Positions 3,428 to 63,895 of a stretch of 64,000 nt of DNA are shown here, in pieces. Position 1 is the first letter of the stretch. Every line of letters starts with the position of its first letter. The stretch lies in assembly GCA_028686345.1 (NCBI GenBank), contig JAQUCE010000007.1, positions 1 through 64,000 of the forward strand, written 5' to 3'. The position numbers were made by a program, and so were the translations under genes. The notes below the pieces were generated by a model. That model saw only the letters and a list, made by a program, of their open reading frames with translations. It ran no database searches and was not told the origin of the DNA. This DNA is from Kiritimatiellia bacterium. GTDB lineage: Bacteria > Verrucomicrobiota > Kiritimatiellia > RFP12 > UBA1067.

Positions 3428-3441
3428 ATCTTATCTGCCTT

Positions 3442-4317: not shown

Positions 4318-4365
4318 CTATGCTCCTGTTGATAAATAATTGTATCATATATAGAAATTATCTTT

Positions 4366-4790: not shown

Positions 4791-4798
4791 GTGATAGC

Positions 4799-4980: not shown

Positions 4981-5084
4981 GCCCATTTTTCACCTCTAAG
5001 ATTTTTCACCTCAAAAAAAACGTAGTGCATTTGCATCAGCCGTGCGACATGCAAGCTTCATGAAAAGTTGAAATGTGTAGGGTT

Positions 5085-5320
5085 GGCGGCCCTTGTCCGG
5101 CATAGTTCCGCAATGCCACGGCGTAGCCCCGCTTGCGGGCGAAGCCGGGTTGCGGGACGACGACGGATGAGCCAAACAAAGATAATGAAACCCCTTGACG
5201 TGCCTTTGACGAACAGCCGCCTGGCACCCTCAAATTGCTTCACCCGCCTTCTTACATACGGCGTGACATGTAGAAACAACCCTACACTTCAGGGTGCGCC
5301 TTTCACGAACTGAAGCATAA
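5085..5320. repeat. Dispersed repeat family A, copy 2
   Basis: It matches the copy at 1300-1500 block by block (GCCACGGC.TAGCCC, GATGAGCCAAACAAAGATAA, TGCCTTTGACGAAC, AATTGCTTCA, AACCCTACAC, TTTCACGAACT), with extra sequence between the last blocks. The whole space from 4585 to 5692 holds only repeats (families B, C, A and D) and no gene. Confidence 0.75.
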
Positions 5321-5559
5321 TACGTCCGACGATGCTGTGCGACGATGTTGGTGGACGATTGGGGTCATGCGTGGGCTCGTCAACCAACATCGTCTCCGCT
5401 ATCGAAAACCGACGGCGCAAAGAACACGAATATTTTTAACTACGAAACATACTAAAAGTGCGAAAAGGGTGCGCTCAGCCTATTTTTAACTACGAATAAC
5501 ACGAATTTGCGCGAATAGACAAGATCACTTTTAAGAGCATTCGTATCATTCCTTTGGTC

Positions 5560-5650
5560 AGCCGCGTAGCGACTGACCTCCTTTCGCGCTTACTTCATTT
5601 GACAAGGCGCGAAGCAAGGAAGTCGTTCGCTATGCGGGCGACTACTACAC
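5560..5650. repeat. Repeat family D (GTCGCCCGCATAGCGGGCGAC type), copy 1
   Basis: GGTCAGCCGCGTAGCGACTGACC and AGTCGTTCGCTATGCGGGCGACT are short palindromes built round GC(A/T)AT/AGCG. The same pattern recurs at 32370-32460, 35465-35520 and 38290-38390, usually in pairs facing each other. Confidence 0.65.
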
Positions 5651-5692
5651 TAAACCCTTGATTAACGTTCGATCAGCAAATTGTGCTTTGCG

Positions 5693-7636: not shown

Positions 7637-7689
7637 CGTGTAACTCCTTGTTATAATTCAGTGAACTCATAGCCAGCAGGGTGCTTGCC

Positions 7690-8550
7690 CTACTTTTCTT
7701 CGCCTAATTTTTGAAATTCAGCCAGTACTGGCATATGATCACTTAGCGCATACGCTGAACTTTTGCCAGGCTCAGGGGTAAAGGGCGGCATGTTAAGCAC
7801 CTGGGCTGCGGTTGAAAACTTCGCAAAATCCGGTGTGGCCCAGATGTAATCAATACGTTGACGGGGATTAGTACTGGAACCTGTGGGGGTTTCGCCTATG
7901 CCATGTTTGGCACCGATATCTATCAGCCCTGCACTGGTCCAGACCTTGTACTCAGGGGCATCGGGTTTGTGGTTCAAATCGCCTTGAAGCAGCACAGGCG
8001 CACTTTGGTTTAATTTTCTGATCAATGCCACAACAGCAGCGGCCTCCTCCAGCCGAACGCTGCGTTCATGAGCATGGAAGTGCACACTGATCACATGTAG
8101 AGAGCCGAATGGCGTATCCAGTTCCGCCCGCCCCAGATGACGGGTGAACAGACGCTCCGGATGAGGGGTACCTGCCGAAGGACGTGACTCGGAATCAACA
8201 ATCGGATACGGGGTGACAACAGCTCCAGGAAAGCCTCCGGGATAGTTTTTACTGCCTTTCCAGCCGCCGGGGAACCAGACGTAATTCATGGCCAGGGTAT
8301 CGGCAAACCGTTTGACCAGCGGCTCTGCTGGCGCCTCCTGCAGAGTAATCAGGGATGGTTTGAACTTGGAGAGCTCGCGGGCGGTTATTTCAGGGTGAGC
8401 GGCAGCGTTTTCCGCTAACAGCTGCGCTGTGGATTCATTATTTGGATACCCGCGAAATGCCAGAACATTGTAGGAGATAGTTCGAAAATCATTTGCATCT
8501 GCCAAACCTGATAAAACTACGATACAGCAGACTATAATAAATCTTTTCAT
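7690..8550 (-). CDS. Secreted endonuclease/exonuclease/phosphatase (EEP) family protein
   Basis: The 286-residue protein starts with a signal peptide (cleavage likely after Ala19) and carries the EEP-fold metal and catalytic motifs in order: ISYNV near residue 26, LITLQEAP, ISVHFHAH, LLQGDLNHKP, RIDYIWATPD and LSDHMPVLAEF. This fold cleaves phosphodiesters or removes phosphate from nucleic acids, lipids or sugar phosphates. Export suggests an extracellular or periplasmic substrate. It lies between the LamG-like gene and the GH32 gene in one direction and may supply phosphate or process debris. Its actual substrate is unknown. Confidence 0.88.
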   Translation of the reverse strand: MKRFIIVCCIVVLSGLADANDFRTISYNVLAFRGYPNNESTAQLLAENAAAHPEITARELSKFKPSLITLQEAPAEPLVKRFADTLAMNYVWFPGGWKGSKNYPGGFPGAVVTPYPIVDSESRPSAGTPHPERLFTRHLGRAELDTPFGSLHVISVHFHAHERSVRLEEAAAVVALIRKLNQSAPVLLQGDLNHKPDAPEYKVWTSAGLIDIGAKHGIGETPTGSSTNPRQRIDYIWATPDFAKFSTAAQVLNMPPFTPEPGKSSAYALSDHMPVLAEFQKLGEEK

Positions 8551-8574
8551 CTTTATTCTCTGTTCGGTTATTGA

Positions 8575-8712
8575 GAAATTACCCTCGTTTCTCCTAACGC
8601 GCAGCGTTTGTTACTAAAGCAGCGGGCTTCTAACCATGCAACTTGCAATAAGAGCAAATCGCCTTCGCATATTACGTAAACGTAGTCGGTTGCGGAGGAT
8701 AGCTGCTTTAGT
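8575..8712. repeat. Repeat family B extension, inverted orientation
   Basis: TTTCTCCTAACGCG, ACTAAAGCAGCGGGCTTCTAACCAT and CTTCGCATATT are followed by GGTTG and then AGCTGCTTTAG. The same blocks recur at 38745-38892. The ends TAAAGCAGC and GCTGCTTTA are complementary, so the element can fold back on itself. It overlaps the stop codon of the GH32 gene. Confidence 0.65.
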
Positions 8713-10810
8713 CATAGATGCTCTTCATCTGCCAGGCATCCAAAGCTTTGAGTAAGCCATCACTGCCCTGAGCGCGCAGTGAAACTCCCTGGCTGTCTGC
8801 TCTGCCGGGATAGACCCGCAGTGCGGCGTATTGCCGTCCGTTAACAAAAACTTCCACCACACTGCGATCAATAAATATGCGCAGCTTCAATGGCTCGTCT
8901 TTGGCCAGCATAAATTGCGCGGTTTCCGGCACACGTGAACGGACATCCGGCAAGGTCGACGAGTAGGTGTTATCAATGGTTATCGCACTCAAGCCCCTGT
9001 AACCGCGCTCACGCTGATAAACAATGCGCGTAAACTCCTCATTATCAGGGCTGCGCAGCACTTTCAACTCGAGCATCTGCGCACTCTTGCTGTCTAACTC
9101 AAGGTTGAGCTCCATGGTGTTCCCGTTTATCGTTGATAGTACAACCTCCTTGTTGGCTGGCAGCAGCAGGTTCTTGAGGCTCTGATGCGCATTGCGCAGC
9201 GACTCAATGTCACCGGTCGGCTCGATCTGCAGCACCTCCGCTGTGCCGACCTTACCCAGTGTCAGGCGCATCGGCAAGCTCATGAGCTGGTTCCAGCCTG
9301 GCGTGTTCTTGGCTGGATTGATATTGAAGATTGTGATCACACCGCCCTTGCCATCCGGGCAGGCGGAGGGCGCATGTACGCCGCCGGGCGAGACTGGCCC
9401 GTGATTGAAATCGCCGCCGTCGGTAATCATAAATTTGTTGCGTTCAGTGTCATAATTGCCCAGCAGGTACTTGCCGCCGCTCTTGTGACTGAAGTGCAGC
9501 AGAATATGTTTGTCGCCGATCGGCCAGAAATACGGACACGCGCCATCATCACCGACCAGACCGTAGTGATCGCCTTCCAGGAAGGTGTGGAGGTATTCCC
9601 ACTGAATCAAATCCTTTGAGCGATGCAGAAACTCGGCCCGCACCTGCTGGCTGCTCTCATGAGCAGGTTTTTTGCCGGCTGTCAGAGCATAGTAGTACTC
9701 GCCCTGCTTCCAGATGCATGGATCAAAAATATTATACGGCAGTGGTTCATCTCCTGGACCAGCGTAAGGAATCACCGCTTGGCCGGTCAGCTTTTCCCAG
9801 TTTAAAAGCAGCGGATCATTGGAGACCGCAACCATGCTGCCAACCCTGGTGCCGTGATACATGGCAATCACGCGATCTTTTTCCACCAGAGTTGAACCAG
9901 AGTAACAGGCGTGCTCCGGATTCGGATAGATGGCATATGGTAGATCACGCCAGTGGATCAGATCATCGCTGATTGCATGACCCCAGTGCTGACGTGAATC
10001 TTCCGGCGGATAAGCCTGATAAAAGAGGTGCCAGCGTCCCTGCCAGAAACAGAGTCCGTTAGGGTCATTGAGCCGATTTTCCGGGCTGCAGAAATGATAG
10101 CGTGGATAATGCGGGTCTTCCAGTAGTTTTTGCCGTGACTCCTTGAAGCGCTCCAGCAGAGGGTTTTTGGCGAGTTCGCGCTCCTGCTCGGCTAGTGAAG
10201 TGGCAAAAGTAAACTTGGGCACCAGCGACTTATATGTGCGATTCGGATCGGTCAAGCGGGCGAAGTCGGGATAAGCCGCCTTTTTCGCGGTATCCGATTG
10301 ATGGATATGATCGATATTGATGTGCCCCCAACCACCGGTGTGGGCATCGATAATCTGAATCCGGGCCTGCTTGCCCTTCAGCTCTTTCACATTCCAGCTG
10401 TACCAATCCATAATTTCATTGCCGCTGTTGTCTTTGACGGCCGGACCAACCGCTGTGCGCTCAACCTTGTCGTCAACCAAAAGGTTGATGCAGGTTAGAT
10501 CTTTGTGGTTGCCCGCTCCAATCAGAAAGTTCACGTGATCGCGTTCGATTTTAAAGGGCGATGAGGTTAATTTGCCGACTGCGGCATCTCCTCCCAGATA
10601 GCTGTTGACCAGCCCTTTTCCCAGGTGCCCTGTCACTTTGTTGGGCGGACTGACATTAGCCACAGCAGGACCATCGCCAAATGCTTGGCCCTCCACCTGC
10701 CAGCCAGCGTAATCTTTGCCTTCAAAATCGGCGATCAGCAGATCTTCCGCCGCCGCGGAAATCAAAACACCACACAGTAAGACGGCTGCAATCAGCAAGC
10801 TTTTCTTCAT
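8708..10810 (-). CDS. GH32-family glycoside hydrolase with N-terminal accessory domain
   Basis: A 700-residue exported protein with signal peptide MKKSLLIAAVLLCGVLISAA. Residues ~23-172 are an accessory beta-sandwich, 240-545 the five-bladed propeller and ~560-700 the C-terminal sandwich (RIFIDRSVVEVFVNG). NDPNG (248-252) holds the nucleophile Asp249 and FDP (362-364) the transition-state Asp. GH32 enzymes release fructose from sucrose, levan or inulin, or split related fructans. The usual Glu-Cys acid/base motif reads DDGAC here (421-425), so the catalytic Glu is not in its standard place; this may mark a subfamily. It heads the minus-strand sugar locus with the EEP protein, LamG-like protein, kinase and porter. 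Confidence 0.9.
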   Translation of the reverse strand: MKKSLLIAAVLLCGVLISAAAEDLLIADFEGKDYAGWQVEGQAFGDGPAVANVSPPNKVTGHLGKGLVNSYLGGDAAVGKLTSSPFKIERDHVNFLIGAGNHKDLTCINLLVDDKVERTAVGPAVKDNSGNEIMDWYSWNVKELKGKQARIQIIDAHTGGWGHINIDHIHQSDTAKKAAYPDFARLTDPNRTYKSLVPKFTFATSLAEQERELAKNPLLERFKESRQKLLEDPHYPRYHFCSPENRLNDPNGLCFWQGRWHLFYQAYPPEDSRQHWGHAISDDLIHWRDLPYAIYPNPEHACYSGSTLVEKDRVIAMYHGTRVGSMVAVSNDPLLLNWEKLTGQAVIPYAGPGDEPLPYNIFDPCIWKQGEYYYALTAGKKPAHESSQQVRAEFLHRSKDLIQWEYLHTFLEGDHYGLVGDDGACPYFWPIGDKHILLHFSHKSGGKYLLGNYDTERNKFMITDGGDFNHGPVSPGGVHAPSACPDGKGGVITIFNINPAKNTPGWNQLMSLPMRLTLGKVGTAEVLQIEPTGDIESLRNAHQSLKNLLLPANKEVVLSTINGNTMELNLELDSKSAQMLELKVLRSPDNEEFTRIVYQRERGYRGLSAITIDNTYSSTLPDVRSRVPETAQFMLAKDEPLKLRIFIDRSVVEVFVNGRQYAALRVYPGRADSQGVSLRAQGSDGLLKALDAWQMKSIYD

Positions 10811-11051
10811 TATTTTCTCTCCTCTTCCACAAAACCATAAACCATATTATGCGATCATTAAAACAGTGACATCAAAAGGATCATAGTATGCTTGAATTTA
10901 TTTCTCAACTAATTAATTGCAAACTGTAAAGAAAGCTGTATTTACAACTCTATGGATGATATGAAATACGAATCTGCAAACCAGTATTTAGATGCAAAAC
11001 ACGATGGCTAAAAGTTGAAGATATCAACGATTATCTGCTGTTGAAGGCAGA

Positions 11052-13118
11052 TTAAACAGACTTTTTTTGTCTGTCAGCTGAGGGCAGGGCAATGTCTATC
11101 AGCTGTCCGATATGTGAGAGCACTAGCAGGCGCGGCTGCTCTTTGATCTGTAGCGGCTCAGCCAGGATATGCAACTGCAAGAGGGTGCGGATCTGATGGG
11201 GGGTGAGTTCAAGCTCCGCATACTGTGGCTCCAGCACAAAGCCGCAACCCTTTCTCCAGCCGGAGCAGCCATAGGCGCGTTTTCCCTTGATAATCTCCCT
11301 GCCGCAGAGCGGGCAGTTGCCCCAGCGGGTGGTGTCAATCCGATAGGCAGAGCTCGTTGAAATCAGGTTGCGGGTGTAATCCGCAATCTTCTCCATGAAA
11401 TCAGTGGCCTGGATCTCATTGCGCTCAATTTTTTTGAGTTGCTCCTCCCACTCTCCGGTCATCTCAGGCGACTTCAGCAGGGGGTCCTGCAGCAAGGCAA
11501 TCAGGCAGCGCCCCATATCTGTCGCGAGAATCTGCTTTTTGTTGCGTTCAATATAGCTACGCTGCAGCAGGGTCTCAATGATCGCGGCGCGTGTGGCCGG
11601 GGTGCCGATACCTCGCTCCTTGAGCGCCTCACGCAGTACGTCGTCATCAACCTGCTTGCCAGCTGCCTCCATGGCGCCCAGCAGCGAGTTTTCAGTGAAG
11701 TGCGAGGGTGGCTTGGTCTTGCCTTCGCGCAGTGCTGGCGTATGAGGACCGCTCTCCCCCTTTTCAAAGGCAGGCAGCAGTTGATCCTCGTCTTCATCCT
11801 TTTTCTTGCTGGGTTTAGGAAAGAGCGCGCTCCACCCTGGTTTTAGAATTTGCGTGCCCTTGGCTTCAAATTCAACGGTGTTGCTGACACCGCTGACGGT
11901 TGTGATCTTCTTGACACAAGGGGGGTAGAAGGCCGCGATAAATTGGGTGGTGATCAGGCGGTAAATCTTCAGCTCGTCGGCGCTAGGCGCGCGTGGCGGA
12001 ACACCGGTCGGAATCAGGGCATGATGGTCAGTGACCTTCTTGTCGTCAATAATACGGCTGGTGAAAGGCAGGCGCGCTAGGTTAAGGGGCGCGATTTCAT
12101 CGGCCCAATCAACCCTGAGCTGCTCCATGATTTTAGGGATGCGCGGCTTCATATCCTGGTTCAGGTAGCGCGAGTCAGTGCGGGGATAGGTGATGCTTTT
12201 GGATTCATAGAGGCTCTGAGCAGACTTGAGTGTGTCGGCCGCCGAAAGGCCGTAGGTTTTGTTGGCCTCGCGCTGCAGGGTGGTGAGGTCAAAGAGCTGG
12301 GGCGGTTGTTCGCGTTTTTCTTTGCCGACAATCGAGGTGATTTCAAAGGGCTGCCCCAGTATTTTTTCCAGTAGGGTTTGCGCCAGCTCAGGCTTGTCAA
12401 ACCGGGTGCCAGTGTACTTGAAGGTCACCTCGCGGTAGAGCGTGGTCAGCTCCCAGAAGGGTTGGGGTATGAAATTACGAATCTCATCATCGCGGTGAAC
12501 GATCATGGCCAGCACCGGGGTCTGCACACGTCCCACGCTCCAGAGTACGCGGTCGGAGCCCCCGCCTGTGCGTCCGTGGCGAACAGTGAAATAGCGCGTG
12601 GCATTCAGCCCCACAATCCAATCCGCTTCGCTGCGCGAGCGCGCGGCTGCGTATAGCGCATCATATTCATGGCCGTCCTTGAGGTTTTTGAAGGCCTCGA
12701 GCACGGCATCCGGGGTCATGGAGTTGAGCCAGAGTCGGCGGATCGGTTTCGCTTCGCAGCCGCTGAGCGTCAGGATGTAGCGGAAGATCAGCTCACCTTC
12801 GCGTCCGGCATCGGTGGCGCAGATGATCTCGTCGGCCTGCTGGCAGAGGGTCTGAATGACCTCAAACTGTTCGGGCACGCCGCGGTTCTTGATCAGTTTC
12901 AGCCGGAACTCTTTCGGGATAAAAGGTAGTGATTGCAGGGTCCATCTTTTGAGGTTGGCATCGTACTCGCCTGGCTCCAGCAGGGTCACCAGATGGCCAA
13001 AGGCCCATGTCACAGCGCAACCACGGCCCTCAATAAACCCGATTTTCTTGTTGGTGATCCGCAACACTGATGCGATGTCGCGTGCCACAGAGGGCTTTTC
13101 GGCTATGATCACTTTCAT
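11052..13118 (-). CDS. topB: DNA topoisomerase III
   Basis: A type IA topoisomerase of 688 residues that passes single DNA strands to resolve recombination and replication intermediates. The Toprim domain starts the protein (MKVIIAEKPSVARDIA, then CATDAGREGELIFRYI with the acidic triad). The active-site tyrosine lies in SITYPRTDSRYL near residue 315, and GVPPRAPS and RGIGTPATRA are typical of the clamp domains. The C-terminus has a zinc-finger-like repeat (NCPLCGR...YGCSGWRKGCGF). Length and order fit TopB and not TopA. The 240 bp upstream, towards the GH32 gene, contain no gene; a short open stretch there ending at 11055 is unidentified. Confidence 0.95.
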   Translation of the reverse strand: MKVIIAEKPSVARDIASVLRITNKKIGFIEGRGCAVTWAFGHLVTLLEPGEYDANLKRWTLQSLPFIPKEFRLKLIKNRGVPEQFEVIQTLCQQADEIICATDAGREGELIFRYILTLSGCEAKPIRRLWLNSMTPDAVLEAFKNLKDGHEYDALYAAARSRSEADWIVGLNATRYFTVRHGRTGGGSDRVLWSVGRVQTPVLAMIVHRDDEIRNFIPQPFWELTTLYREVTFKYTGTRFDKPELAQTLLEKILGQPFEITSIVGKEKREQPPQLFDLTTLQREANKTYGLSAADTLKSAQSLYESKSITYPRTDSRYLNQDMKPRIPKIMEQLRVDWADEIAPLNLARLPFTSRIIDDKKVTDHHALIPTGVPPRAPSADELKIYRLITTQFIAAFYPPCVKKITTVSGVSNTVEFEAKGTQILKPGWSALFPKPSKKKDEDEDQLLPAFEKGESGPHTPALREGKTKPPSHFTENSLLGAMEAAGKQVDDDVLREALKERGIGTPATRAAIIETLLQRSYIERNKKQILATDMGRCLIALLQDPLLKSPEMTGEWEEQLKKIERNEIQATDFMEKIADYTRNLISTSSAYRIDTTRWGNCPLCGREIIKGKRAYGCSGWRKGCGFVLEPQYAELELTPHQIRTLLQLHILAEPLQIKEQPRLLVLSHIGQLIDIALPSADRQKKSV

Positions 13119-13142
13119 GAGTTTGTGGCCCTAGTGCTTTGA

Positions 13143-13250
13143 TCAAGGCTTGTCCTTGTCGGCATTGTTTGGTTTAAGTAACCTGAGATAATCTCGCCTC
13201 TCGTACAGAATACGGCTGACAGAAACGGTCTTATTTTCTAATCGAACATG
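13143..13250 (-). pseudogene. C-terminal remnant of a RelE/ParE-type toxin
   Basis: Directly after the antitoxin stop, in another frame, the sequence reads NKTVSVSRILYERRDYLRLL and then a Lys/Asp-rich end. This is the final strand and helix of RelE/ParE toxins (V.V.RILY..RDY...L). There is no room for the ~60 residues that should precede it, and no start codon next to the antitoxin gene. The toxin has been removed by deletion, leaving an orphan antitoxin. Confidence 0.65.
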
Positions 13251-13251
13251 A

Positions 13252-13497
13252 CTAGACACCGAGTTTATCTCTTGCAGCGTCCATTGAGCCCCATCCATAT
13301 TTTCGGGCAGACTCTTCGCCTTCAGATAAGGCAGACATGAGTTCCAGCTTGGCACACAATCGCTCATAGGCACGAATGTCAACAATGGCAAAGCGGCCAC
13401 GTCCGTTTTTAGTCAAAAACACCGGTGTGTCTTCCGTGACCTCGCGCAAGACGGTGTTGTAATTCCTGAGATCGGATATGGGTTTTATGGTTGGCAT
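13252..13497 (-). CDS. Phd/YefM-family antitoxin, orphaned
   Basis: The 81-residue protein begins MPTIKPISDLRNYNTVLREV and contains TPVFLTKNGRGRFAIVDIRAYER, the standard N-terminal DNA-binding fold of Phd/YefM antitoxins. These bind the cognate RelE/ParE-like toxin and repress their own operon. The ATG at 13497 has GAGGAG at the right distance, so it is chosen over a longer frame from 13557. The C-terminal half is short (KLELMSALSEGEESARKYG...), and the toxin gene that should follow is only a remnant. Confidence 0.9.
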   Translation of the reverse strand: MPTIKPISDLRNYNTVLREVTEDTPVFLTKNGRGRFAIVDIRAYERLCAKLELMSALSEGEESARKYGWGSMDAARDKLGV

Positions 13498-13645
13498 GAA
13501 AAGCTCCTCTTGTTTATTTAAAAGTGTAGTTGAATCCTGCGTATAATACAACAGCAAAATATTTATGCAAAAAATATAAAATTTTCTGTGACGCTTCAGC
13601 AGTTATTGTCTATAGTTTGTTGAAAGAGAGTTGAGGGTAAGCGCA

Positions 13646-14227
13646 ATGAGAGTTAATTTTGAAATAGGCAGTGATATTAAATCAGCTCAGGATGGCGACA
13701 TGCCGGCCTTTGGCCGCTTGGTGAGGCAGCACGAAAAAATGTTGCTGGCTTTTGCTGTTTACCGCATGCCGGTGCGTGAGGAGGCGCGAGAAGCGGTGCA
13801 GGATACCTTTATCCGGGCCTATGAGCAGATTGCCGAATTCCGGCCCGATGGTGATTTCGGTGTCTGGCTGCGCTCAATCTGCCGCTATATGATTCTTAAT
13901 CGTGTTCACGAGTATACCCGCCGCAGGCGCAAGCAGGAGGATTACAGGGCTCAGCTCGCTGTGCTGGCGGTTGATGCGGTCAGCGGCGATGAAATTACTG
14001 ATTATGGGAGTGATCCGCTGGCCCAGCTCTCCGAATGTCTCGATAAACTCAACGAACAAAGCCAGGCTCTGATTAAAGAGCGCTACCATAACACACTCTC
14101 CATTCACGAAATTTCGAAAAAAACAGGACGCACATCAACGTGGGTGACCAGTACGCTGCATCGCGTCCGCAGCGTGCTGAAAACCTGCATCGAACAAACC
14201 CGTAAGGAGCAGAACAATGAACAATAA
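13646..14227 (+). CDS. ECF-type RNA polymerase sigma factor
   Basis: A sigma-70 family protein of 193 residues with region 2 (FGRLVRQHEKMLLAFAVYRM...EAREAVQDTFIRAYEQI...FGVWLRSICRYMILN) and region 4 (LDKLNEQSQALIKERYHNTLSIHEISKKTGRTSTWVTSTLHRVRSVL), joined by a short linker as in extracytoplasmic-function factors. It would direct polymerase to a small regulon. GAGGG lies upstream of the ATG at 13646, which is preferred over a TTG at 13631. Its last 11 bases overlap the next gene, whose product has an anti-sigma-like N-terminus, implying translational coupling and control by that protein. Confidence 0.93.
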   Translation: MRVNFEIGSDIKSAQDGDMPAFGRLVRQHEKMLLAFAVYRMPVREEAREAVQDTFIRAYEQIAEFRPDGDFGVWLRSICRYMILNRVHEYTRRRRKQEDYRAQLAVLAVDAVSGDEITDYGSDPLAQLSECLDKLNEQSQALIKERYHNTLSIHEISKKTGRTSTWVTSTLHRVRSVLKTCIEQTRKEQNNEQ

Positions 14228-16706
14228 CAGCGTCGACCCAAACAAACAGTTTGAAGAGCTTGTGGAAAGCTACATTGATGGAACAATAACAGAGGAGCAG
14301 TCGAAAGCGCTGCTGGAGTTGATCCAGGATAATGAAACAAACCGTAAGCAGTTTGCAGCACAGGTGCAGCTCGCTGAACTCTTGGCCATTAAAGAGGGGG
14401 GCGAGGAGCCGTCAGTTCATGATAAGATCCTTGCGCTTCTGACAGCCTCACCAGCGCCAGGCGCACGCAAGCAGCCGGGTAAGTTCAATTGGAGCCGCAC
14501 TCTGGTTCGGATTGCGGCAATCCTGATGGTCGCGGTTGGGGTATCTTATGTTGTTAAACTGAACTTTGAGGATCAGATGGTCACTTCACAGGAGTTTGCC
14601 CTTAAAGAAACTGTTGTTTTTGTTGAACCTCAAGCCTTGGAACTTGAGGCGCCATCCGAAGCAACTGTTAAGCCACGTGCTGATGGTTCTTCCGCTATTG
14701 ATTCCACAGAACTTAAGAAAGATACTGAAGCTTTGATCGGGCAGGTGATCGGCGGCAGTGACGCATCGCACCCAGCTAGCGAGCGAGAGGCAGTGGAGAG
14801 TCCGATCAGTCCAACCCCGCAGGAGTTTAATGCAGTGATGACAGTTAAATCTCCGCTGATCTTGAAGAATATCGATGGTTCGACACGCTCGACTGACAAT
14901 GCGCCAAGTCGTAGAAGATCTGTGGGGACTAGAGGTGAGCAGAGCGCGGTTGATTACAGAAGCGAAGATCTGGAGGTTCTTGACATCCCGGCGGATCAAC
15001 AGAAAACTGAAGAAGCGCAACCGACGGGAGTCGCACCAAAGATGGTTCCGCTGGAAATCGCAAAGCCCAAGCCGCAGTTTAGCGGCACCCCGAAAGACAT
15101 ACGCTCGCCTAATCTGGAGTCATCCTCGGAGCGTCTGGCCAGACAGGAGGGTGTTGCCCCCACTTCTTCACAATTAGCCCCCGCGAGCAGGGGGGCCGCT
15201 AGGTATAAGAAAATGATACCGCCCGGCAGATTGCCGCAGCCAAAAGGGGAGAGCTATGCAAAGATCGAAGAGAATGAGTTTCTGACTCCAGCTGAAAAAC
15301 CGCTCTCAACCTTCTCAATTGATGTTGATACAGCCTCCTACTCCAATATGCGGCGCTTTATCATGCAGAACCAGCTACCGCCAGCGGACGCTGTGCGGGT
15401 TGAGGAGCTGATCAACTACTTTGAGTACAACTACGCGGCTCCAGGCCCTGGGGCTCCTTTCTCAGCTGCGATGGCCTTGCACCCCTGCCCTTGGAATCCG
15501 CAGCATCATTTGCTGCGGGTGGGGTTGCAGGGACGTAAGATGGATGCTGACAACCGCAAGCCATCCAATCTGGTTTTTCTGCTGGATGTCTCCGGTTCAA
15601 TGGACACTCCGGATAAGCTGCCGTTATTAAAAACCGGGCTGGCCATGCTGGTGAATGCCCTGACCGAGAGTGATCGGGTGGCGATCGTGGTCTATGCCGG
15701 CTCCTCGGGTCTGGTGCTGGACTCTACCTCTGCCGCTGAGAAAGAAAAAATCATAGCTGCCATGGGGCGCCTCACCGCCAGCGGGTCAACAGCGGGTGGT
15801 GCCGGAATTCAGCTGGCCTACAGGGTGGCGGCTGACAACTTTATCAAGGGCGGTGTCAACCGTGTGATTCTGGCAACTGATGGCGACTTTAATGTGGGGG
15901 TCTCCTCGCATAATGAACTGCAAGCTCTGATAGAACAGCAACGCGCCAGCGGAATCTTTTTGAGTGTGCTCGGGTTCGGCACCGGCAACCTGCAGGATTC
16001 CAAGATGGAGCTGCTGGCCAATAAAGGCAATGGTAACTACTTTTATATCGACACCGAGCGCGAGGCCCGCAAGGTACTGGTCGAGCAGCTCAACGCCACC
16101 TTGGTCACGATTGCCAAGGATGTGAAGATCCAGATCGAATTCAACCCGGAGTATGTCAAGCAATATCGACTGATTGGTTATGAGAATCGCAAGATGGCGG
16201 CGCGTGATTTTGATGACGATAAAAAAGACGCGGGCGAGATCGGTGCTGGCCATCAGGTGACCGCTCTGTACGAGATCATTCCGGTTGGCGCGCCTGATAT
16301 GCACGACAGCGTCACTCTCAAGTATGGGAAGAAGGATGAGAAGAGTGCTGAGCCGCAGTCGCCTGAGATGTTGACCCTTAAACTACGCTACAAAGAACCT
16401 GAAGGCGAGAACAGTCAACTACTGACCTTCCCGCTGTCCAGGGATGCGCTGCAGCGGGGTGCTGGGGATCAATCCTTCCGCTGGGCTGCCGCGGTGGCCG
16501 CCTTTGGGCAGATACTGCGCGGTTCGCCTCATGTTGGCAATTATTCATTTGGTGATGTCAAGGCTCTGGCTGCTGATGCTAAAGGCGAGGATCCCAATGG
16601 TTATTGCAGTGAGTTTATCAACCTGCTGGAGCGGGCGGCAAAGCTTCAAGGCGCAGCCCCGGCAACCAATGACAAAGGTTACCCTCTCTGGCAGTACCGT
16701 AACTAA
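14217..16706 (+). CDS. Anti-sigma-like / YfbK-type von Willebrand factor A fusion protein
   Basis: An inner-membrane protein of 829 residues. Residues 1-65 (FEELVESYIDGTITEEQSK, then ALLELIQDNETNRKQF) resemble the cytoplasmic N-terminus of FecR/anti-sigma proteins in planctomycete-like bacteria. A single membrane helix follows at about 96-116 and then a long low-complexity linker. PLSTFSIDVDTASYSNMRRF opens the YfbK-type N-terminal region. The VWA domain carries the MIDAS motif DVSGSM near residue 456 and ATDGDFNVG. The C-terminus fits DUF3520. Overlap with the sigma gene makes it the likely sigma regulator, with the VWA part sensing something outside the membrane. The ligand is unknown. Confidence 0.87.
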   Translation: MNNNSVDPNKQFEELVESYIDGTITEEQSKALLELIQDNETNRKQFAAQVQLAELLAIKEGGEEPSVHDKILALLTASPAPGARKQPGKFNWSRTLVRIAAILMVAVGVSYVVKLNFEDQMVTSQEFALKETVVFVEPQALELEAPSEATVKPRADGSSAIDSTELKKDTEALIGQVIGGSDASHPASEREAVESPISPTPQEFNAVMTVKSPLILKNIDGSTRSTDNAPSRRRSVGTRGEQSAVDYRSEDLEVLDIPADQQKTEEAQPTGVAPKMVPLEIAKPKPQFSGTPKDIRSPNLESSSERLARQEGVAPTSSQLAPASRGAARYKKMIPPGRLPQPKGESYAKIEENEFLTPAEKPLSTFSIDVDTASYSNMRRFIMQNQLPPADAVRVEELINYFEYNYAAPGPGAPFSAAMALHPCPWNPQHHLLRVGLQGRKMDADNRKPSNLVFLLDVSGSMDTPDKLPLLKTGLAMLVNALTESDRVAIVVYAGSSGLVLDSTSAAEKEKIIAAMGRLTASGSTAGGAGIQLAYRVAADNFIKGGVNRVILATDGDFNVGVSSHNELQALIEQQRASGIFLSVLGFGTGNLQDSKMELLANKGNGNYFYIDTEREARKVLVEQLNATLVTIAKDVKIQIEFNPEYVKQYRLIGYENRKMAARDFDDDKKDAGEIGAGHQVTALYEIIPVGAPDMHDSVTLKYGKKDEKSAEPQSPEMLTLKLRYKEPEGENSQLLTFPLSRDALQRGAGDQSFRWAAAVAAFGQILRGSPHVGNYSFGDVKALAADAKGEDPNGYCSEFINLLERAAKLQGAAPATNDKGYPLWQYRN

Positions 16707-16755
16707 AGCAGCCCGCCGGCGCCTGCCTTCGTGCTACGCACAGGCAGGCAACCAA

Positions 16756-57386: not shown

Positions 57387-59885
57387 ATGAACGCTTTTCA
57401 TAAGATATATACAGCTCTTTTGCTCCTTTGCTGGAGCGGAGCACTCCTGGCTTCGCCGCTTGAGGTTGCCGAGGAGGCGCTGAGCGACAGCCTGTATCGG
57501 GTAGCTCAGACCAATGCGGTTCTGGCCTTGCGCGATGAAACGAGCATGGACGGCCAGCAGAGGGCGCTCTTGATTTTACTCGAGGCGCTGGCCCACCAGA
57601 AGCGCTATGATGAGATGCTGCAGACTCTGGAGCAGAATCAAGCACTGGTGGGTGCTGCTAAGAGTGTTGATGCGTTGCTCTATTGGCGAGTGCTGGCCCT
57701 GTTCAATCAGCAGCGGTTTGATGATGTCGCCAGGATCGTGAACTCCGCACAGGTCAACAGCAACTCGGTTTATGGTGTCACCATGATGCGCATCGGCGCA
57801 CGCTCCCGAGGTCAGGCTGGCGACTTGAGCGGCGCGCTGGCCCTGTTTGCCCGGGTTGACCAGAGCACCACCAGCCTGAATCTCAGGGCCTCCAACGCGC
57901 TGGAGTGGGCGGTGATGCTGGACCGGGAGGGGAGCTACGATGAGGCGCTGCGGGTTTTGAAGATGCTCGCTCAGTATGGCATCACCGGCGAAGCGGTCAA
58001 TGAGGGAGCTTTGCTGCGCGGCCGAATTTTGATGAAGCAGGGCAAGATGGAGGAGGCAACGCTGGTAATGGATGCCTTGGCAATGAACGACCGCGTGGCG
58101 GAGATCCCGCGGGTGCAGGCCCAGGTGGAGATGAGCGTTTATAAGTTTGAACGCGGCTTGACCAATGAGGCGATTGCCTATGCGCGCTCCGCCTATGAGC
58201 GTGCGCAGCTACCAGCCACCCGCAAGCTGGCTGGATACCGGCTAGGCGATCTGCTGACCCTTGATCCAGCCACGCTGGAGGAGGGGAGCCGGCTGATCAA
58301 AGCGCTGGTGCGCGAGTTTCCTGAGGATGCGGAGTCCATGCAGGCGCATTTGAAGCTGGCCGACTCTTTGCTGCAGATGAAGGAGACGGCGGCAGCCGCG
58401 GCTGAGTACCGTATCCTGCTTGAAACCTATCCCGCCTCCTCGCTGGACGGACGGGTGATGCAGGGCCGCGGCTGGGCTCTTTTTCAGCTGGGGCGTTACA
58501 CCGAGGCGGGGGTGGCCTTTGCCAAAGCCGCTGAGCTGGCCGACGACAACGCAGTTAAAGCGGAGTGCCTTTTTAAACGCTGCGACGCGCTGCTGGCTGA
58601 CAAGCGCTATGGGGAGGCCGCGGCTGCATACAAAGAGTTGACTGACCGCTTTCCTGATTCAAAGTATGCGGGCCAAGCTCTGTTTCAAAGCGCGGATGCG
58701 CTGGAGCGGGCCGGCAACCTGACCGAGGCCGGGGTGCGTTACAGCGAGGTGGCCGCCCGCTACCCGCATCGGGATGTGGCGCCAGACGCGCTGCTGCGGG
58801 TGGCTGCCCTGCAGAGTGCGGCCCGGGAACTTGCCGCTGCAATCGAAACCTATTCGTTGGTCATCGAAAGTTTTACCAATGCCAACCTCATGGCGCAGGC
58901 CTACATGGGGCGCGGCAAGGTCTATTACAGCAAGTATGAGTTTAAAAACGCCATGCAGGATTTTGCGGCTGTCGCGGAGGTCGCCCCGGCAAGGCTGGAT
59001 GAGGCGCGTTATTATCTGACCCTCACTCTTTATGGTTTGGGACGTGATAGCGACGCGCTGGATTCCGCCAACGAATTTGTGATCAATTTTCCTAACTCGC
59101 AGTACTTTCCAGAGATGCTCCTGTGGCTGGGCAAGTTTAATTTCAACCGACTGGATTATGCGGCTGCCAGGAAATACTTTGATGAGTTCGCAGTTGGTTT
59201 TCCTGAAAGAAAATGGGCGGGTACTGCATTGCTGTGGGAGGCCCGCGCCATGTTTAACAGTGGCGACTTCACCGCCGCGGTTGAGACGATCGCGCGCTTG
59301 GTCAAGTTGTATCCGGAGAGCCCGCAGATTGCGGAAGCTCGTTTTGTGCAGGCCGACGCGCTGATTGAACTGGCCCGCTTTGATGCGGCCATTCTGCTGC
59401 TTGACGGAATTCTTGCAAAAGCGCCGGAGAGTAAGTGGGGGCGTTTGGCGCTCCTAAGAAAAGGCAACTGCCTGTTTGCGCTCGGTGCCGGCAATCGCCT
59501 TCGCTACGAAGAGGCGCTGGCGGCTTATCGAAAAATGGCGCAGGAGACGGGGCTGCCCTCAGCACTGCTGATTGAGTTGTACTATAAAATTGGCCGGTGC
59601 CTGGAGAAGCTTGAGCGTTTTGACGAGGCTGTTGAGTGTTATTACACCGAGGTGCTGTTGCGATATTTGCAAGAGAGTGCCGCTGGAGCGTGGTATGACG
59701 AAACCACATTGAGTTTGGTGGTGCGGGCGGCGTTCAGCGCAGCCGAGATCTTTGAGAAGCAGGGCGAGTATAAAAAGGCGGTCAGCATGCTGCAGAGAAT
59801 TGTCACCTCCGGCGGCCTGGCCTCTGACGAGGCGCTGAGAAGGATCGAGGTTTTAAAGAAATTAAGAGGGTTCAAGGAGCTTTGA
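57387..59885 (+). CDS. Exported tetratricopeptide-repeat protein (YbgF/BamD-like repeats)
   Basis: An 832-residue periplasmic protein with signal peptide (LLLLCWSGALLA) and about 15 or more TPR units through its length, e.g. YRILLETYPASSLDGRVMQG, FQLGRYTEAGVAFAKAAELA, YKELTDRFPDSKYAGQALFQ and RLVKLYPESPQIAEARFVQA. The A..F......P.S..A..A......A....G pattern matches the TPR type of CpoB/YbgF and BamD. It is the first gene of a six-gene operon with ExbB/TolQ and ExbD/TolR homologues, consistent with a Tol-Pal-like envelope machine. The ExbB start follows 16 bp after its stop. Confidence 0.88.
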   Translation: MNAFHKIYTALLLLCWSGALLASPLEVAEEALSDSLYRVAQTNAVLALRDETSMDGQQRALLILLEALAHQKRYDEMLQTLEQNQALVGAAKSVDALLYWRVLALFNQQRFDDVARIVNSAQVNSNSVYGVTMMRIGARSRGQAGDLSGALALFARVDQSTTSLNLRASNALEWAVMLDREGSYDEALRVLKMLAQYGITGEAVNEGALLRGRILMKQGKMEEATLVMDALAMNDRVAEIPRVQAQVEMSVYKFERGLTNEAIAYARSAYERAQLPATRKLAGYRLGDLLTLDPATLEEGSRLIKALVREFPEDAESMQAHLKLADSLLQMKETAAAAAEYRILLETYPASSLDGRVMQGRGWALFQLGRYTEAGVAFAKAAELADDNAVKAECLFKRCDALLADKRYGEAAAAYKELTDRFPDSKYAGQALFQSADALERAGNLTEAGVRYSEVAARYPHRDVAPDALLRVAALQSAARELAAAIETYSLVIESFTNANLMAQAYMGRGKVYYSKYEFKNAMQDFAAVAEVAPARLDEARYYLTLTLYGLGRDSDALDSANEFVINFPNSQYFPEMLLWLGKFNFNRLDYAAARKYFDEFAVGFPERKWAGTALLWEARAMFNSGDFTAAVETIARLVKLYPESPQIAEARFVQADALIELARFDAAILLLDGILAKAPESKWGRLALLRKGNCLFALGAGNRLRYEEALAAYRKMAQETGLPSALLIELYYKIGRCLEKLERFDEAVECYYTEVLLRYLQESAAGAWYDETTLSLVVRAAFSAAEIFEKQGEYKKAVSMLQRIVTSGGLASDEALRRIEVLKKLRGFKEL

Positions 59886-59901
59886 ACCTGGAGAGTTGAT
59901 T

Positions 59902-60513
59902 ATGTTGTATAGCTACGGCGGAGTTGTTTTTTTAATTATCCTGCTATTGGAATTGGTCACAGTGGTGATCTTCTTTGAACGGTTGCTGCATTTGCGCCGC
60001 GCACAGGTTGACCATATGGATTTTATCAATGGGGTCTGTAACCTCCTGGACCGGGACAATGCGCTTGAGGCGAAAATGATCTGTGAGGAGACCCCCGGAC
60101 CAGTCGCGGCGGTGGTGCTGACCGCTGTCCGCCATCAAAACGGAACCCCTGAAGCATTGCGCGACGCAGTCGACAACACCGGGCGCGCGGAGATCTCCCG
60201 TCTGGAGCGGCGGGTGGTTTCGCTGGCGGTTATCTCGCAGATCGCACCGCTGCTGGGCTTGCTGGGAACCCTGATTGGCGTTATTAAGATTGTTTACCTG
60301 ATTAACGAACAGGCACCCCTGATTAAAAATACAGATTTAACCGTGGGGCTGATGGGCGCACTGGTAACAACCGTTGCCGGCTTGATTGTCGCCATTACCG
60401 CACACTCCATGTATGCGTTGATTATGGTCAGGATTGAGCGCATTGTGCAGGATATGGAGGCCGCCGCATCGAATATGGTCGCGTATTTAACCACTAAAAC
60501 GCCAGCCTCTTAA
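59902..60513 (+). CDS. MotA/TolQ/ExbB proton channel family protein
   Basis: The 203-residue inner-membrane protein has three membrane spans: residues ~5-25, ~108-130 and ~145-170. The conserved channel segments are ISQIAPLLGLLGTLIGVIKI and GLMGALVTTVAGLIVAITAH. With the ExbD/TolR partner encoded next it would form a proton-driven motor that energises an outer-membrane or periplasmic process. The ATG at 59902, preceded by CTGGAGAG, is preferred to an upstream TTG. Confidence 0.92.
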   Translation: MLYSYGGVVFLIILLLELVTVVIFFERLLHLRRAQVDHMDFINGVCNLLDRDNALEAKMICEETPGPVAAVVLTAVRHQNGTPEALRDAVDNTGRAEISRLERRVVSLAVISQIAPLLGLLGTLIGVIKIVYLINEQAPLIKNTDLTVGLMGALVTTVAGLIVAITAHSMYALIMVRIERIVQDMEAAASNMVAYLTTKTPAS

Positions 60514-60526
60514 AATAAGTTCTACT

Positions 60527-61021
60527 ATGAATTATGAGAATCACAGTTGGAGTTGGATCGTAAAGAAACACCGCTCGGTTCACACCCGCTTCGGCAACCG
60601 CTGGTTTCAGGGGTTCAGCGGCGGTATCCCCTGGATTGATGCCATCATCATTATTGTCCTGCTGCTGTCGGTCAACAAACAATTGACCATTGTTCCCGGT
60701 ATGGTCTTTGATCTTCCCTCTGCCCCATTGCGCGGTGGCACCCACAGCGCTTTAACCGCAGTCATGGTTCCTGTTGTGCAGGACTTGAGCAGTGGCAGCG
60801 AAACCCTGGTTTTCTTTGATGATGAGCGGTTCTCCATGAATGACGCGGAGCTGTTGCTGCGCTTGGCAGCCAAGGTGCGCAACCGGATCCAGGCCAGCTC
60901 CAACCACGATCTGCTGCTGCTGGCTGATAAAAAAATTCCGCATGGCGATGTGATCCGCTTTGTGAATATTGTCCGGGAGGCTGGTGTCCGCAGGGTGAAT
61001 GTCGCCGAGAAGCCGGAATAA
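60527..61021 (+). CDS. ExbD/TolR-family biopolymer transport protein
   Basis: The 164-residue protein has one N-terminal span, GIPWIDAIIIIVLLLSV, with the essential membrane Asp, then a periplasmic domain ending LLLLADKKIPHGDVIRFVNI followed by VREAGVRRVNVAEK, the usual ExbD/TolR C-terminus. The cytoplasmic N-terminus is longer than normal (~35 residues, basic and aromatic: WIVKKHRSVHTRFGNRW). It follows the ExbB gene by 13 bp. A stator-rotor pair is therefore encoded without a recognisable TonB or TolA. Confidence 0.9.
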   Translation: MNYENHSWSWIVKKHRSVHTRFGNRWFQGFSGGIPWIDAIIIIVLLLSVNKQLTIVPGMVFDLPSAPLRGGTHSALTAVMVPVVQDLSSGSETLVFFDDERFSMNDAELLLRLAAKVRNRIQASSNHDLLLLADKKIPHGDVIRFVNIVREAGVRRVNVAEKPE

Positions 61022-61052
61022 AGCCCCTGATAAGTGTAAGCGTGGATTAAAA

Positions 61053-61763
61053 ATGACTGAAACTGGAACATATAAAGCCAAGCCGGCCAGAGGCGCGCTG
61101 CGATTCTGGTTGCAGCCGTTTATACTGCTTTTCCTTGTTCTGCTGCTGTGCCGACTGCTGCCAGTCTCGGCTGTGCTCTATGAATCACGGGAGCTGCGCC
61201 CACTGCCTGCGGCCCGCGTTTTTTATGTGAACATCGACCCTGATTATGCAATGGAGATCTTGCGGGCTTCAATGCAAACCTGGCGCAGATCGAAACCAGA
61301 GGGCGAGGGGGGTGACAACATGTCCATGGAGGCGGTTGAACTCTCCGCGCCATTGGGGCCGCCTGTTTTTTTGCAGCAGGGCGCCCTCTACCCCGGCGTT
61401 TGGAAGCCGCGTGCGATCACGCCGCTGGCTCAGTCGCTCCCTGGACTTCTGCATGCCAGTGATATTGTCAGCCGGTATAGCAACCCGGCAACACCCAAAC
61501 CCCCGCGGAGCGGCATGCACGCGACGCTTGATGCGGCATTTCAGGGGGTGCGGTTTACCTTGGACGCTGCGGCATTGCCGACCCTGCCCGGGGTTGGCAG
61601 CTGCCGTTTTTATGTTGAAACAGCCGCGGACGGTTCTGTGGCGCATGTGCTTCGCCTCGACGCATCGATCAAGGATGTCACGGCCTTTGAACGCGCACTC
61701 TATTTGGCGCGGGCGCAAGGTCAGGCGCAGGGGGAAATTGAAATCAGGTGGAGGAATCCATGA
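61053..61763 (+). CDS. Membrane-anchored protein of unknown family in the ExbBD operon
   Basis: The 236-residue product has a basic N-terminus, one span (FWLQPFILLFLVLLLCRLLP, about residues 18-37) and a periplasmic part rich in Pro and Ala. Topology (N-in, single span, periplasmic Pro-rich region, compact C-terminal domain of ~80 residues) and its place directly after exbB-exbD match TonB/TolA, but no TonB C-terminal motif could be recognised. It could be the missing force-transmitting partner; this is inference. The stop overlaps the next start (ATGA). Confidence 0.75.
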   Translation: MTETGTYKAKPARGALRFWLQPFILLFLVLLLCRLLPVSAVLYESRELRPLPAARVFYVNIDPDYAMEILRASMQTWRRSKPEGEGGDNMSMEAVELSAPLGPPVFLQQGALYPGVWKPRAITPLAQSLPGLLHASDIVSRYSNPATPKPPRSGMHATLDAAFQGVRFTLDAAALPTLPGVGSCRFYVETAADGSVAHVLRLDASIKDVTAFERALYLARAQGQAQGEIEIRWRNP

Positions 61764-62872
61764 TCTTACGAAAATGCGTAGCGGCTCTCTCTGCTGTCGG
61801 CTGTGTTGCAGCGTTGCTGCTTGTTGCCAGTTGCGGCCCCAATGCGGTTAACCAGGAAAAGGACGCAGTGCCGCGCGTGCTTTACCTCTCTGTTCAGCAA
61901 TTGCTGCCGCTTGAAAAAAATGACGCTTTGCCTGTGGCGTATAGCAATAGCCTGATCCTAACCACCGGCTCAGGGAGCGTGCGCGCCTTGGACCTCCAGC
62001 TGCAAGAGCGCTGGAAGGTCAAACTAGAGGAGTTTGATTTCAGCGGCGGTGCAACGGTGTTTAACCAGAACCTGCTGCTGGCATCGCGCGAGGGCCGTGT
62101 TTTTTGTCTGAACGCGGAAACAGGGGGGGTACTCTGGCAAAAGAGCCTTGATGGAACCTTCAGCCATCCGCCCCTGTGCGGGATGATTGACGATAATCCA
62201 GTTGTCTGGCTGCTCTCGCAGAGTGATGGTGTGCTCTATGCTTTGAAGATGGCGGATGGCACCCTCTTGTGGAGTGGCAAAGAGACTAATCGCTCAGATG
62301 GGGCGGCACTCCTGTGGCGACACAAGCTGGCCTATGGCAACTGTGATGGTGCGGTGCACCTTTTCAGTGCCGGGGATGGCAAACAAACCAGTTCGATTTT
62401 GATTGGCGGTTCCGACCAGATGGCTGGCACGCCGCTGGCGACTGCGGAGGGGCAACTTTGGATTGGCACCCGCGCTGGCCAGCTTGCGCTGGTTGATTTG
62501 AATGCGGAGCAGCTGCTCGGAACCTTGAAGATCTCAGAGAGCGAGGCCTTTGTCACGCCTGTTCAGGCTTTTGATGACACGATTGCGGTTGGTGTGAGTG
62601 AAGGGCGTGTGCTGCTATGCCGCGCAGAAGGGGGCCAACCGCTGATTGTTAAAGAGAGCTTGCTGGCCGGCGGCGTGGACGCGCTGCTCTTTGATGGAAC
62701 GCTGCTTTATGCTCTGGCCGAGGGGACGCTCTATGCGCTGAACTCGGAGTTGGGCATCGAGGCCTCACTGAATGTCGGCGATAGGGCCGACGGAGTGGTT
62801 GAGCTGAGTTATGGAGTGTTGGCAGTGCGGGCTGATCGCTCGCTGCTGTTAATCAAAGGGGAGTGGAAATGA
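61760..62872 (+). CDS. PQQ-like beta-propeller lipoprotein
   Basis: The 370-residue protein starts MILRKCVAALSAVGCVAALL and has lipobox VASC near residue 29. The rest is propeller repeat: AETGGVLWQKSLDG, KMADGTLLWSGKETN, TAEGQLWIGTRAGQLALVDL, TLYALAEGTLYALNSELG. The pattern resembles PQQ-type or BamB-like propellers, which act as outer-membrane scaffolds. It is coupled by ATGA overlaps to both neighbours. A BamB-like role in envelope assembly is plausible but unproven. Confidence 0.85.
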   Translation: MILRKCVAALSAVGCVAALLLVASCGPNAVNQEKDAVPRVLYLSVQQLLPLEKNDALPVAYSNSLILTTGSGSVRALDLQLQERWKVKLEEFDFSGGATVFNQNLLLASREGRVFCLNAETGGVLWQKSLDGTFSHPPLCGMIDDNPVVWLLSQSDGVLYALKMADGTLLWSGKETNRSDGAALLWRHKLAYGNCDGAVHLFSAGDGKQTSSILIGGSDQMAGTPLATAEGQLWIGTRAGQLALVDLNAEQLLGTLKISESEAFVTPVQAFDDTIAVGVSEGRVLLCRAEGGQPLIVKESLLAGGVDALLFDGTLLYALAEGTLYALNSELGIEASLNVGDRADGVVELSYGVLAVRADRSLLLIKGEWK

Positions 62873-63549
62873 GCGGTGCTGATATCAATGTGGTTAATTG
62901 TTGCAAGAGCTTTCCTGTCGCGCAGAGCGACCCCGTGGCGGTGCTCAAAGGAGTCTCGTTTGATCTGTTGGCAGGGCATTCGCTGGCCATCACCGGTGCT
63001 TCGGGTTCCGGCAAATCCACCCTGCTGCAGATTCTGGGAGCCATGGAGTATCCCGGCAGCGGCGAGGTGTTTGTCAATGGGCGCGATATTACCCGGCTGG
63101 ATCAGGGCGCACGCGCTGAGTTCCGCAACCGGGAGGTTGGCTTTATCTTTCAATCTCACTATCTGCTGCCGCAGCTCTCGGCCTTGGACAATGTGCTGGT
63201 GCCGACTTGGAACAGCCGCCGGGAGAGCGATCAGCACCTTGCCCGCGCCCATGAGCTTTTAAAACGGGTGGGCTTAGAGAGCCTGGCCCGGCGGCTGCCA
63301 GGCCAGCTCTCCGGCGGTGAGCGTCAGCGCGTGGCGGTCGCGCGCGCGCTGATCATGGAGCCTGCCTTGATCCTGGCTGATGAGCCGACCGGGGCCTTGG
63401 ACCGCACCAACTCCGAGAGCTTGATGGATCTTCTGCTGGAGATCAACAGTATTGAAAGAGCCACGCTTGTGCTTGTCACCCACTCGCCCTTCTGCGCCGA
63501 GCGCATGGAGCGCGAGATCTCGCTGCTCGATGGCGTGATAGTGAAGTAG
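62869..63549 (+). CDS. LolD-like ABC transporter ATP-binding protein
   Basis: A 226-residue ATPase of the MacB/LolD/FtsE type. Walker A is ITGASGSGKSTLLQIL, the Q-loop FIFQSHYLLPQLSALDNVL, the signature LSGGERQRVAVARAL and Walker B PALILADEPTGALD, followed by H-loop VTHSP. In the Lol system it would power release of lipoproteins from the inner membrane with a LolC/E permease, which is not encoded next to it here. ATGA overlap with the lipoprotein gene ties it to that operon. No gene of the same operon follows. Confidence 0.92.
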   Translation: MSGADINVVNCCKSFPVAQSDPVAVLKGVSFDLLAGHSLAITGASGSGKSTLLQILGAMEYPGSGEVFVNGRDITRLDQGARAEFRNREVGFIFQSHYLLPQLSALDNVLVPTWNSRRESDQHLARAHELLKRVGLESLARRLPGQLSGGERQRVAVARALIMEPALILADEPTGALDRTNSESLMDLLLEINSIERATLVLVTHSPFCAERMEREISLLDGVIVK

Positions 63550-63583
63550 CTCTAAAACAGCTAGCCGCAGTAACCGAACGAGC

Positions 63584-63629
63584 TTGGCGGCAAAGGGGTC
63601 AGCCCTTTGGCGGCAAAGGGGTCAGCCCT
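63584..63629. repeat. Two tandem 23-bp units (TTGGCGGCAAAGGGGTCAGC...)
   Basis: Exact copies at 63584-63606 and 63607-63629. The nearby CTAAAACAGCTAGCCGCAGT (63552-63571) is the start of family B again. AAAGGGGTCAGCCCTTGAAT shortly before a RAYT start is an arrangement often seen upstream of such transposase genes. Confidence 0.85.
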
Positions 63630-63681
63630 TGAATTAGTTGTTTAGCCTGCGTTACCAGCGATCTTCTGCTTTAATAGCTCC

Positions 63682-63753
63682 ATGGCTAGACATGTCAGAG
63701 TTGAATATCCGGGTGCCATATATCATGTGACCTGCAGGATGCTGGGTGATGCA
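63682..63753 (+). pseudogene. N-terminus of a REP-associated tyrosine transposase (RAYT)
   Basis: From the ATG the sequence reads MARHVRVEYPGAIYHVTCRM and LGDA, the highly conserved opening of Y1/TnpA-REP transposases (MAR..R.EYPGA.YHVT.R). The catalytic HUH and Tyr parts are absent: after Ala24 the frame changes to unrelated residues and stops at about 63829. The break coincides with the join to an RND transporter tail. Confidence 0.82.
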
Positions 63754-63895
63754 CACAGCCTTCGGTTTGTTTGCCTCCACGCTCCTGGTTTTGCTGCTCC
63801 TGCCCTGTCTATATATGATCCTCGGTGATCTCGGCTGGATCGAACCTTTCGACAAGTTAGCGGATGCAACCTCCTCACCCCAACCCGGCAAATAA
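63749..63895 (+). pseudogene. C-terminal tail of an RND-family efflux pump
   Basis: In a frame shifted against the RAYT start, 48 codons read HTAFGLFASTLLVLLLLPCL and YMILGDLGWIEPFDKL before a stop. This is the last membrane helix and end of AcrB/HAE1 or related RND transporters (FG...AT.LTL...P.LY.I.EDL). Nothing upstream belongs to the pump. A deletion has therefore fused the first 24 codons of a RAYT to the pump's end. Confidence 0.7.

Follow-up and report, generated by a model that had tools for sequence, protein, structure and literature searches.

In the 5:2 motors TolQR, ExbBD and MotAB, an aspartate and a ring of threonines are called essential for proton transfer (PMC10666116, PMC8928145, PMC12204202), and an Asp-to-Asn mutant of MotB serves as a mimic of the protonated state (PMC9389320). 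The Asp of ExbD, TolR and MotB is accordingly treated as an irreplaceable proton site. Within the PVC group, operons of the order TPR-TolQ-TolR-TolR-vWA have been described, with transducers that end in a vWA domain, an SHLS motif and two TolR-like proteins (PMC12204202). Here we describe an operon of the class Kiritimatiellae that, in most of the relatives sampled, departs from the rule of the irreplaceable Asp. The open-access literature yielded no report of an ExbD family without this residue and no paper naming ExbD together with Kiritimatiellae.

Layout of the locus and its relatives

The window, a stretch of 64,000 nucleotides at the start of contig JAQUCE010000007.1 (assembly GCA_028686345.1), comes from a genome of 5.3 Mb in 218 contigs that is 90% complete. 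As the first-pass annotation had described, positions 57387-63549 hold six closely spaced, co-directional genes on the + strand, whose existence we confirmed by an ORF check of the window (Table 1). There are two ATGA overlaps, one between the gene for the 236-residue protein (here UNK) and the propeller gene at 61760 and the other between the propeller and LolD-like genes at 62869; the remaining gaps in the run measure 16, 13 and 31 bases. The ExbB gene starts at the ATG at 59902, with an in-frame TTG also present at 59896. Upstream, an ilvC-type gene ends at a terminator-like hairpin (56815), and the TPR gene is preceded by a promoter-like site at 57313; these two consensus matches are compatible with an independent transcription unit. 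Beyond the run, the interval 63560-63760 contains the direct repeat GGCGGCAAAGGGGTCAGCCCTT adjoining a fragment that resembles the start of a REP-associated transposase (MARHVRVEYPGAIYHVTCRM).

Table 1. Genes of the six-gene run, with positions in the window and the evidence for each label
Gene product	Position	Strand	Evidence
TPR protein (832 aa, periplasmic, signal peptide)	57387..59885	+	YbgF/CpoB-like repeats; gene next to ExbB in most of the class's lineages
ExbB/TolQ-type pore subunit	59902..60513	+	MotA_ExbB (PF01618), 83.8 bits (gathering 22.9); TolQ/ExbB matched in PDB search; alignments
ExbD/TolR-type subunit	60527..61021	+	ExbD (PF02472), 31.6 bits (gathering 25.4); TolR in PDB profile search; alignments
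UNK, 236 aa, putative TonB/TolA-like transducer	61053..61763	+	TonB_C profile-profile match; predicted secondary structure
Beta-propeller (PQQ/BamB-like) lipoprotein, lipobox VASC	61760..62872	+	PF13360, 74.5 bits; distribution
LolD/MacB/FtsE-type ABC ATPase	62869..63549	+	ABC_tran, 119 bits; Walker A, signature and Walker B intact

As judged from profile searches and alignments, the family labels of the recognised ORFs hold at the superfamily level. The TPR protein passes the model of the YbgF repeat domain (TIGR02795; 151 bits against a cut-off of 90) and falls far below that of full-length CpoB (PRK10803; 63.9 against 383). The nearest NCBIfam models are TolQ for ExbB and TolR for ExbD. ExbB has threonine at both positions corresponding to T148 and T181 of Escherichia coli ExbB, and ExbD, which passes its Pfam model narrowly, keeps the proton-site Asp in its transmembrane helix within a PWID motif.

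To find relatives, we searched with UNK at three levels (close relatives, class and phylum) and read the gene neighbourhoods of the matches; genes were called as the longest ORF with priority given to homology, and many of the sampled genomes are fragmented drafts. The order TPR-ExbB-ExbD-UNK, hereafter the core, occurs in 31 family codes, 29 within the class and two outside it, and is contiguous in at least 57 loci. In the two outside families and in f3 we saw ExbB-ExbD-UNK alone, with no adjoining TPR gene. The operon reflects more than chance, given that lineages throughout the class repeat the order of the core, and by its co-conservation the TPR protein is the best candidate for a partner of the complex. 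At the phylum level the UNK search gave no match in some families (f4, for example), which could mean either absence or divergence. Outside the window's family, the core commonly lies between an upstream gene of the size of uvrA and a downstream gene of the size of hisD, and at one locus Pfam identified these flanks as uvrA and hisD. In other families, the LolD-like matches that precede the TPR gene turned out to be UvrA and were discarded.

The full six-gene order is present at ten loci, and the propeller and LolD-like genes follow the core in part of a single family, f1; at other loci the next gene is hisD, a phosphoribosyltransferase or an M60 peptidase. The first-pass annotation had proposed following the gene order across related lineages, and it is the core, in its 29 families of the class, that proves conserved and not the last two genes. 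The natural unit is thus four genes, TPR-ExbB-ExbD-UNK, not six, and the propeller and LolD-like genes are local, clade-specific additions in one family. Two features of the downstream region may be recorded here: the f3 loci (L055, L146 and others) carry an M60-type peptidase of ~750 aa directly after ExbB-ExbD-UNK, and at L048 and L050 a 1162-aa protein with no Pfam match occupies the position of the propeller-LolD pair.

The names given earlier to these two additions stand in part. The propeller, called a BamB-like lipoprotein, does belong to the PQQ/BamB-like superfamily, and it has a clear lipobox in the window's genus, to which that feature is limited (several relatives have no lipoprotein-type cysteine); against the BamB equivalog TIGR03300 it scores 71.8 bits where 285.2 is the cut-off. 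The supposed Lol-type ATPase is of the LolD/MacB/FtsE type and shares 41.7% identity with the LolD that this genome encodes beside LolC/E. It misses the LolD equivalog cut-off (231 against 308 bits), and no permease gene adjoins it at this locus.

TolB, Pal and LolC/E are not encoded at the locus, as had been pointed out, and such genes are found elsewhere in the same genome. A TolB-like gene with two Pal-like lipoprotein genes lies at C72, an ExbB-ExbD-TonB_2 locus at C202 and a bona fide TonB at C190, and six further ExbDs bring the genome's total to seven, compared with 4-15 in relatives. At C29 (L098, C29:38000-57000, 3261-16747) the order is TPR1012-ExbB-ExbB-ExbD-ExbD-527aa-LolC/E-LolD, followed by ExbD-527aa. 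The setting of a LolCD pair between ExbD genes is an odd arrangement, and the 527-aa proteins have just weak squalene-hopene-cyclase and pectate-lyase matches. Against an anti-phage library, we obtained generic superfamily matches alone.

These distributions bear on two explanations of the locus. The first-pass annotation had suggested that the six genes could form a machine powering the assembly of lipoproteins or proteins of the outer membrane through LolD and the BamB-like lipoprotein, with the presence of standard loci elsewhere as a point that would count against it. The overlap of the UNK, propeller and LolD-like genes in all ten six-gene loci fits such a machine. However, its last two components are confined to part of f1, neither passes the BamB or LolD cut-off and the ATPase has no adjoining permease. 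Moreover, Tol, Ton and at least one LolC/E-LolD pair are provided for elsewhere, so the assembly reading is left unsupported, and we regard it as highly improbable. A divergent Tol-Pal system, with TolQ, TolR and a TolA-like arm, the propeller in place of TolB and the TPR protein as CpoB, would account for a gene set like tolQ-tolR-tolA-tolB-cpoB and for the nearest models of ExbB and ExbD. It is nevertheless quite unlikely, given that most core-bearing lineages have no propeller, that the operon has no Pal, and that TolB with two Pal-like lipoproteins and a further ExbB-ExbD-TonB_2 set are present at other loci.

The 236-residue protein

UNK of the window matches no Pfam or NCBIfam model, TonB_C below its cut-off included, and a profile search of the PDB with UNK found no match; across the family, two of 22 members match Pfam TonB_C weakly (best E 0.08). 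The protein has an N-terminal transmembrane helix at about residues 14-41, a linker and a C-terminal domain at about residues 155-236. When a profile of 51 UNK C-terminal domains was compared by hhalign with TonB_C domains from genomes of the same order, the two aligned in the register of the TonB family with probability 86, an E of 5e-6 and a score of 34.2. None of 200 column shuffles reached this score (mean 9.8, maximum 20.1), and the reversed profile scored 12.1. The 22-member UNK profile alone gives a weak TonB_C match (E 0.002-0.003). AlphaFold models of three UNK sequences, of low confidence (pLDDT 39 and 49), have a C-terminal beta-beta-alpha-beta arrangement and the transmembrane helix at 14-41; with these models Foldseek returned nothing significant, the TonB homologue FusB ranking 3-4 for the C-terminal model at an E above 1. 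The earlier description of the protein as TonB/TolA-shaped is borne out, and on these profile comparisons UNK is a remote transducer of the TonB/TolA type that the Pfam and NCBIfam models miss. It adds a new TonB-like transducer in a class whose envelope biology has been little studied.

The window's UNK has no histidine in its transmembrane helix, and the S-x-x-x-H (SHLS) motif is not conserved among its relatives. We considered this loss as a second sign of uncoupling and dropped it: the histidine is also missing from several bona fide TonB_C proteins in the same genomes, and it has been argued to be structural (PMC8928145). Such histidine-free TonB_C proteins, of ~220-229 aa, are encoded in these bacteria at L188, L189, L191, L192 and L196.

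In the clade of genera g2, g6 and g14, UNK is shortened to ~150-166 aa and ends before the TonB-like domain (L163, L164, L171, L173, L179, L181, L182 and L277). Apparent ExbD-UNK fusions in g14 were artefacts of out-of-frame upstream extension. UNK might be one more TonB that serves TonB-dependent transporters with its own ExbBD, as its length and TonB_C-like domain would allow. That role is very unlikely for a protein whose terminal domain is missing from a whole clade and whose transmembrane helix has no S/H motif, encoded in an operon with no receptor gene and in a genome with a bona fide TonB at C190.

The proton site in relatives of the core

In HMMER alignments, the transmembrane Asp of TolR falls opposite a consensus Asn of the core ExbD family. 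Among 92 core loci readable at this column, the residue is Asn in 42, Asp in 29, Thr in 13, Ser in six and Gly in two, so that Asp is replaced, mostly by Asn, in about two thirds (63/92). By contrast, all 62 control ExbDs from the same genomes have Asp (42/42, and 20/20 from the low-scoring end of the match list). The 29 Asp-bearing loci come from 14 families: 12 family codes have Asp only and two (f1 and f3) are mixed, while 17 have other residues only. In genus g13 the difference separates two species, one with Asp (GAC) and the other with Asn (AAC). In the transmembrane segment of the Asp-less proteins, no acidic residue is conserved as a substitute for the Asp.

On phylogenies inferred after removal of the trait columns, and with changes in either direction counted alike, the site has switched between Asp and other residues at least 14 times (82 rows; a quick tree with many weak branches, on which shuffled labels average 24) or at least eight times (55 rows; better supported). 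Between Asp-less species, dN/dS is 0.02-0.10 for ExbB, 0.02-0.19 for ExbD and 0.13-0.39 for UNK, with zero or tiny values for one near-identical pair. These low ratios indicate that the genes are not decaying and are under strong purifying selection.

The threonine ring of ExbB is more widely kept, with T148 in 77 and T181 in 64 of 82 relatives. Both threonines are present in 28/29 Asp-bearing and 36/53 Asp-less loci, a difference that reaches p 0.002 by Fisher's test yet is not significant by phylogenetically independent pairs; an association between loss of Asp and loss of Thr is therefore suggestive only. In the g2/g6/g14 clade, whose UNK has no TonB-like domain, the Asp of ExbD has become Thr and T181 of ExbB, where readable, Ala. 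We also considered loss of ExbB Glu176 and set it aside because control ExbBs mostly carry Gln at that position.

The weightiest alternative, which we judge somewhat unlikely, is that in all lineages the core works as an ordinary Ton/Tol motor driven by protons, either because the Asp-less ExbD forms heterodimers with an ExbD that is encoded in another operon and has the Asp, or because some other residue carries the protons. Potential partners are plentiful in these ExbD-rich genomes, heterologous ExbD pairs are encoded in other PVC operons (C29 here; PMC12204202) and most Asp-less loci retain the threonine ring. However, every core operon has one dedicated and very divergent ExbD, whose Pfam score in the window is 31 bits, the genome's six others reaching 62-106; a substitute acidic residue is not conserved, and one clade has lost the threonine ring and the TonB-like domain as well.

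We consider the chances about evenly balanced that the core is instead a Ton/Tol-derived trans-envelope complex with a conserved role that does not need canonical proton-driven motion. In the inner membrane, a pentamer of ExbB would surround a dimer of ExbD, with UNK bound at the side as a TonB-like arm; the periplasmic partner would be the large TPR protein. The proton motive force could energise the complex in the window's genus, where the Asp of ExbD and the threonine ring of ExbB are intact. The conserved job would most likely be a structural or conformational link, perhaps as a scaffold, that joins the two membranes and the cell wall, with energising by protons optional or ancestral: a site that changes at least 14 times under purifying selection suggests a job that is probably independent of proton-driven movement.

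Tentatively, and with somewhat less than even confidence, we propose further that the proton motive force was given up repeatedly, the complex persisting under selection as a scaffold or signalling strut that spans the envelope and works without protons. The loci would then form a natural series from an intact motor (Asp, threonine ring and TonB-like tip) to an unplugged one (no Asp, an altered ring and no tip). We infer this loss of proton coupling, like the assembly of the complex and its role as a scaffold, whereas gene order, homologies, residue differences and selection are read from the sequences themselves. As a counterweight, neither the Asp nor either threonine is missing from the window, and the Asp is retained at 29 loci; somewhere, then, coupling to protons is still of importance or has survived. 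An Asp-less operon under selection offers a natural experiment on the non-proton roles of such complexes.

Comparison with known systems

The core resembles the Ton system in combining ExbB and ExbD homologues with a third protein that has an N-terminal transmembrane helix, a linker and a TonB_C-like end. It differs in that UNK lies below the TonB_C cut-off and has no transmembrane histidine motif, in its co-conserved large TPR partner and in an ExbD whose Asp is not conserved. With Tol-Pal (TolQ-TolR-TolA-TolB-Pal-CpoB) it shares its nearest models, TolQ, TolR and the YbgF/CpoB repeats, and a comparable gene set; unlike that system, the core operon has no TolB or Pal, which are encoded elsewhere in the genome, and the propeller found beside it is of the PQQ type and is not conserved with the core.

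The TPR-TolQ-TolR-TolR-vWA operons of the PVC group have, like the core, a TPR gene with an ExbBD-type motor, occur in the same phylum and have no assigned function (PMC12204202). They are set apart by their vWA end, SHLS motif and two TolR proteins. A locus that resembles this vWA force-transducer class, ExbB-ExbD-TPR-vWA, lies apart from the core at C38 of the window's genome (L096, 7248-12785), downstream of SurA/KsgA-like genes. With MotAB and other 5:2 stators, finally, the window's own proteins have in common the proton-site Asp and the threonine ring, whereas most relatives of the core are without the Asp that published stator work calls essential.
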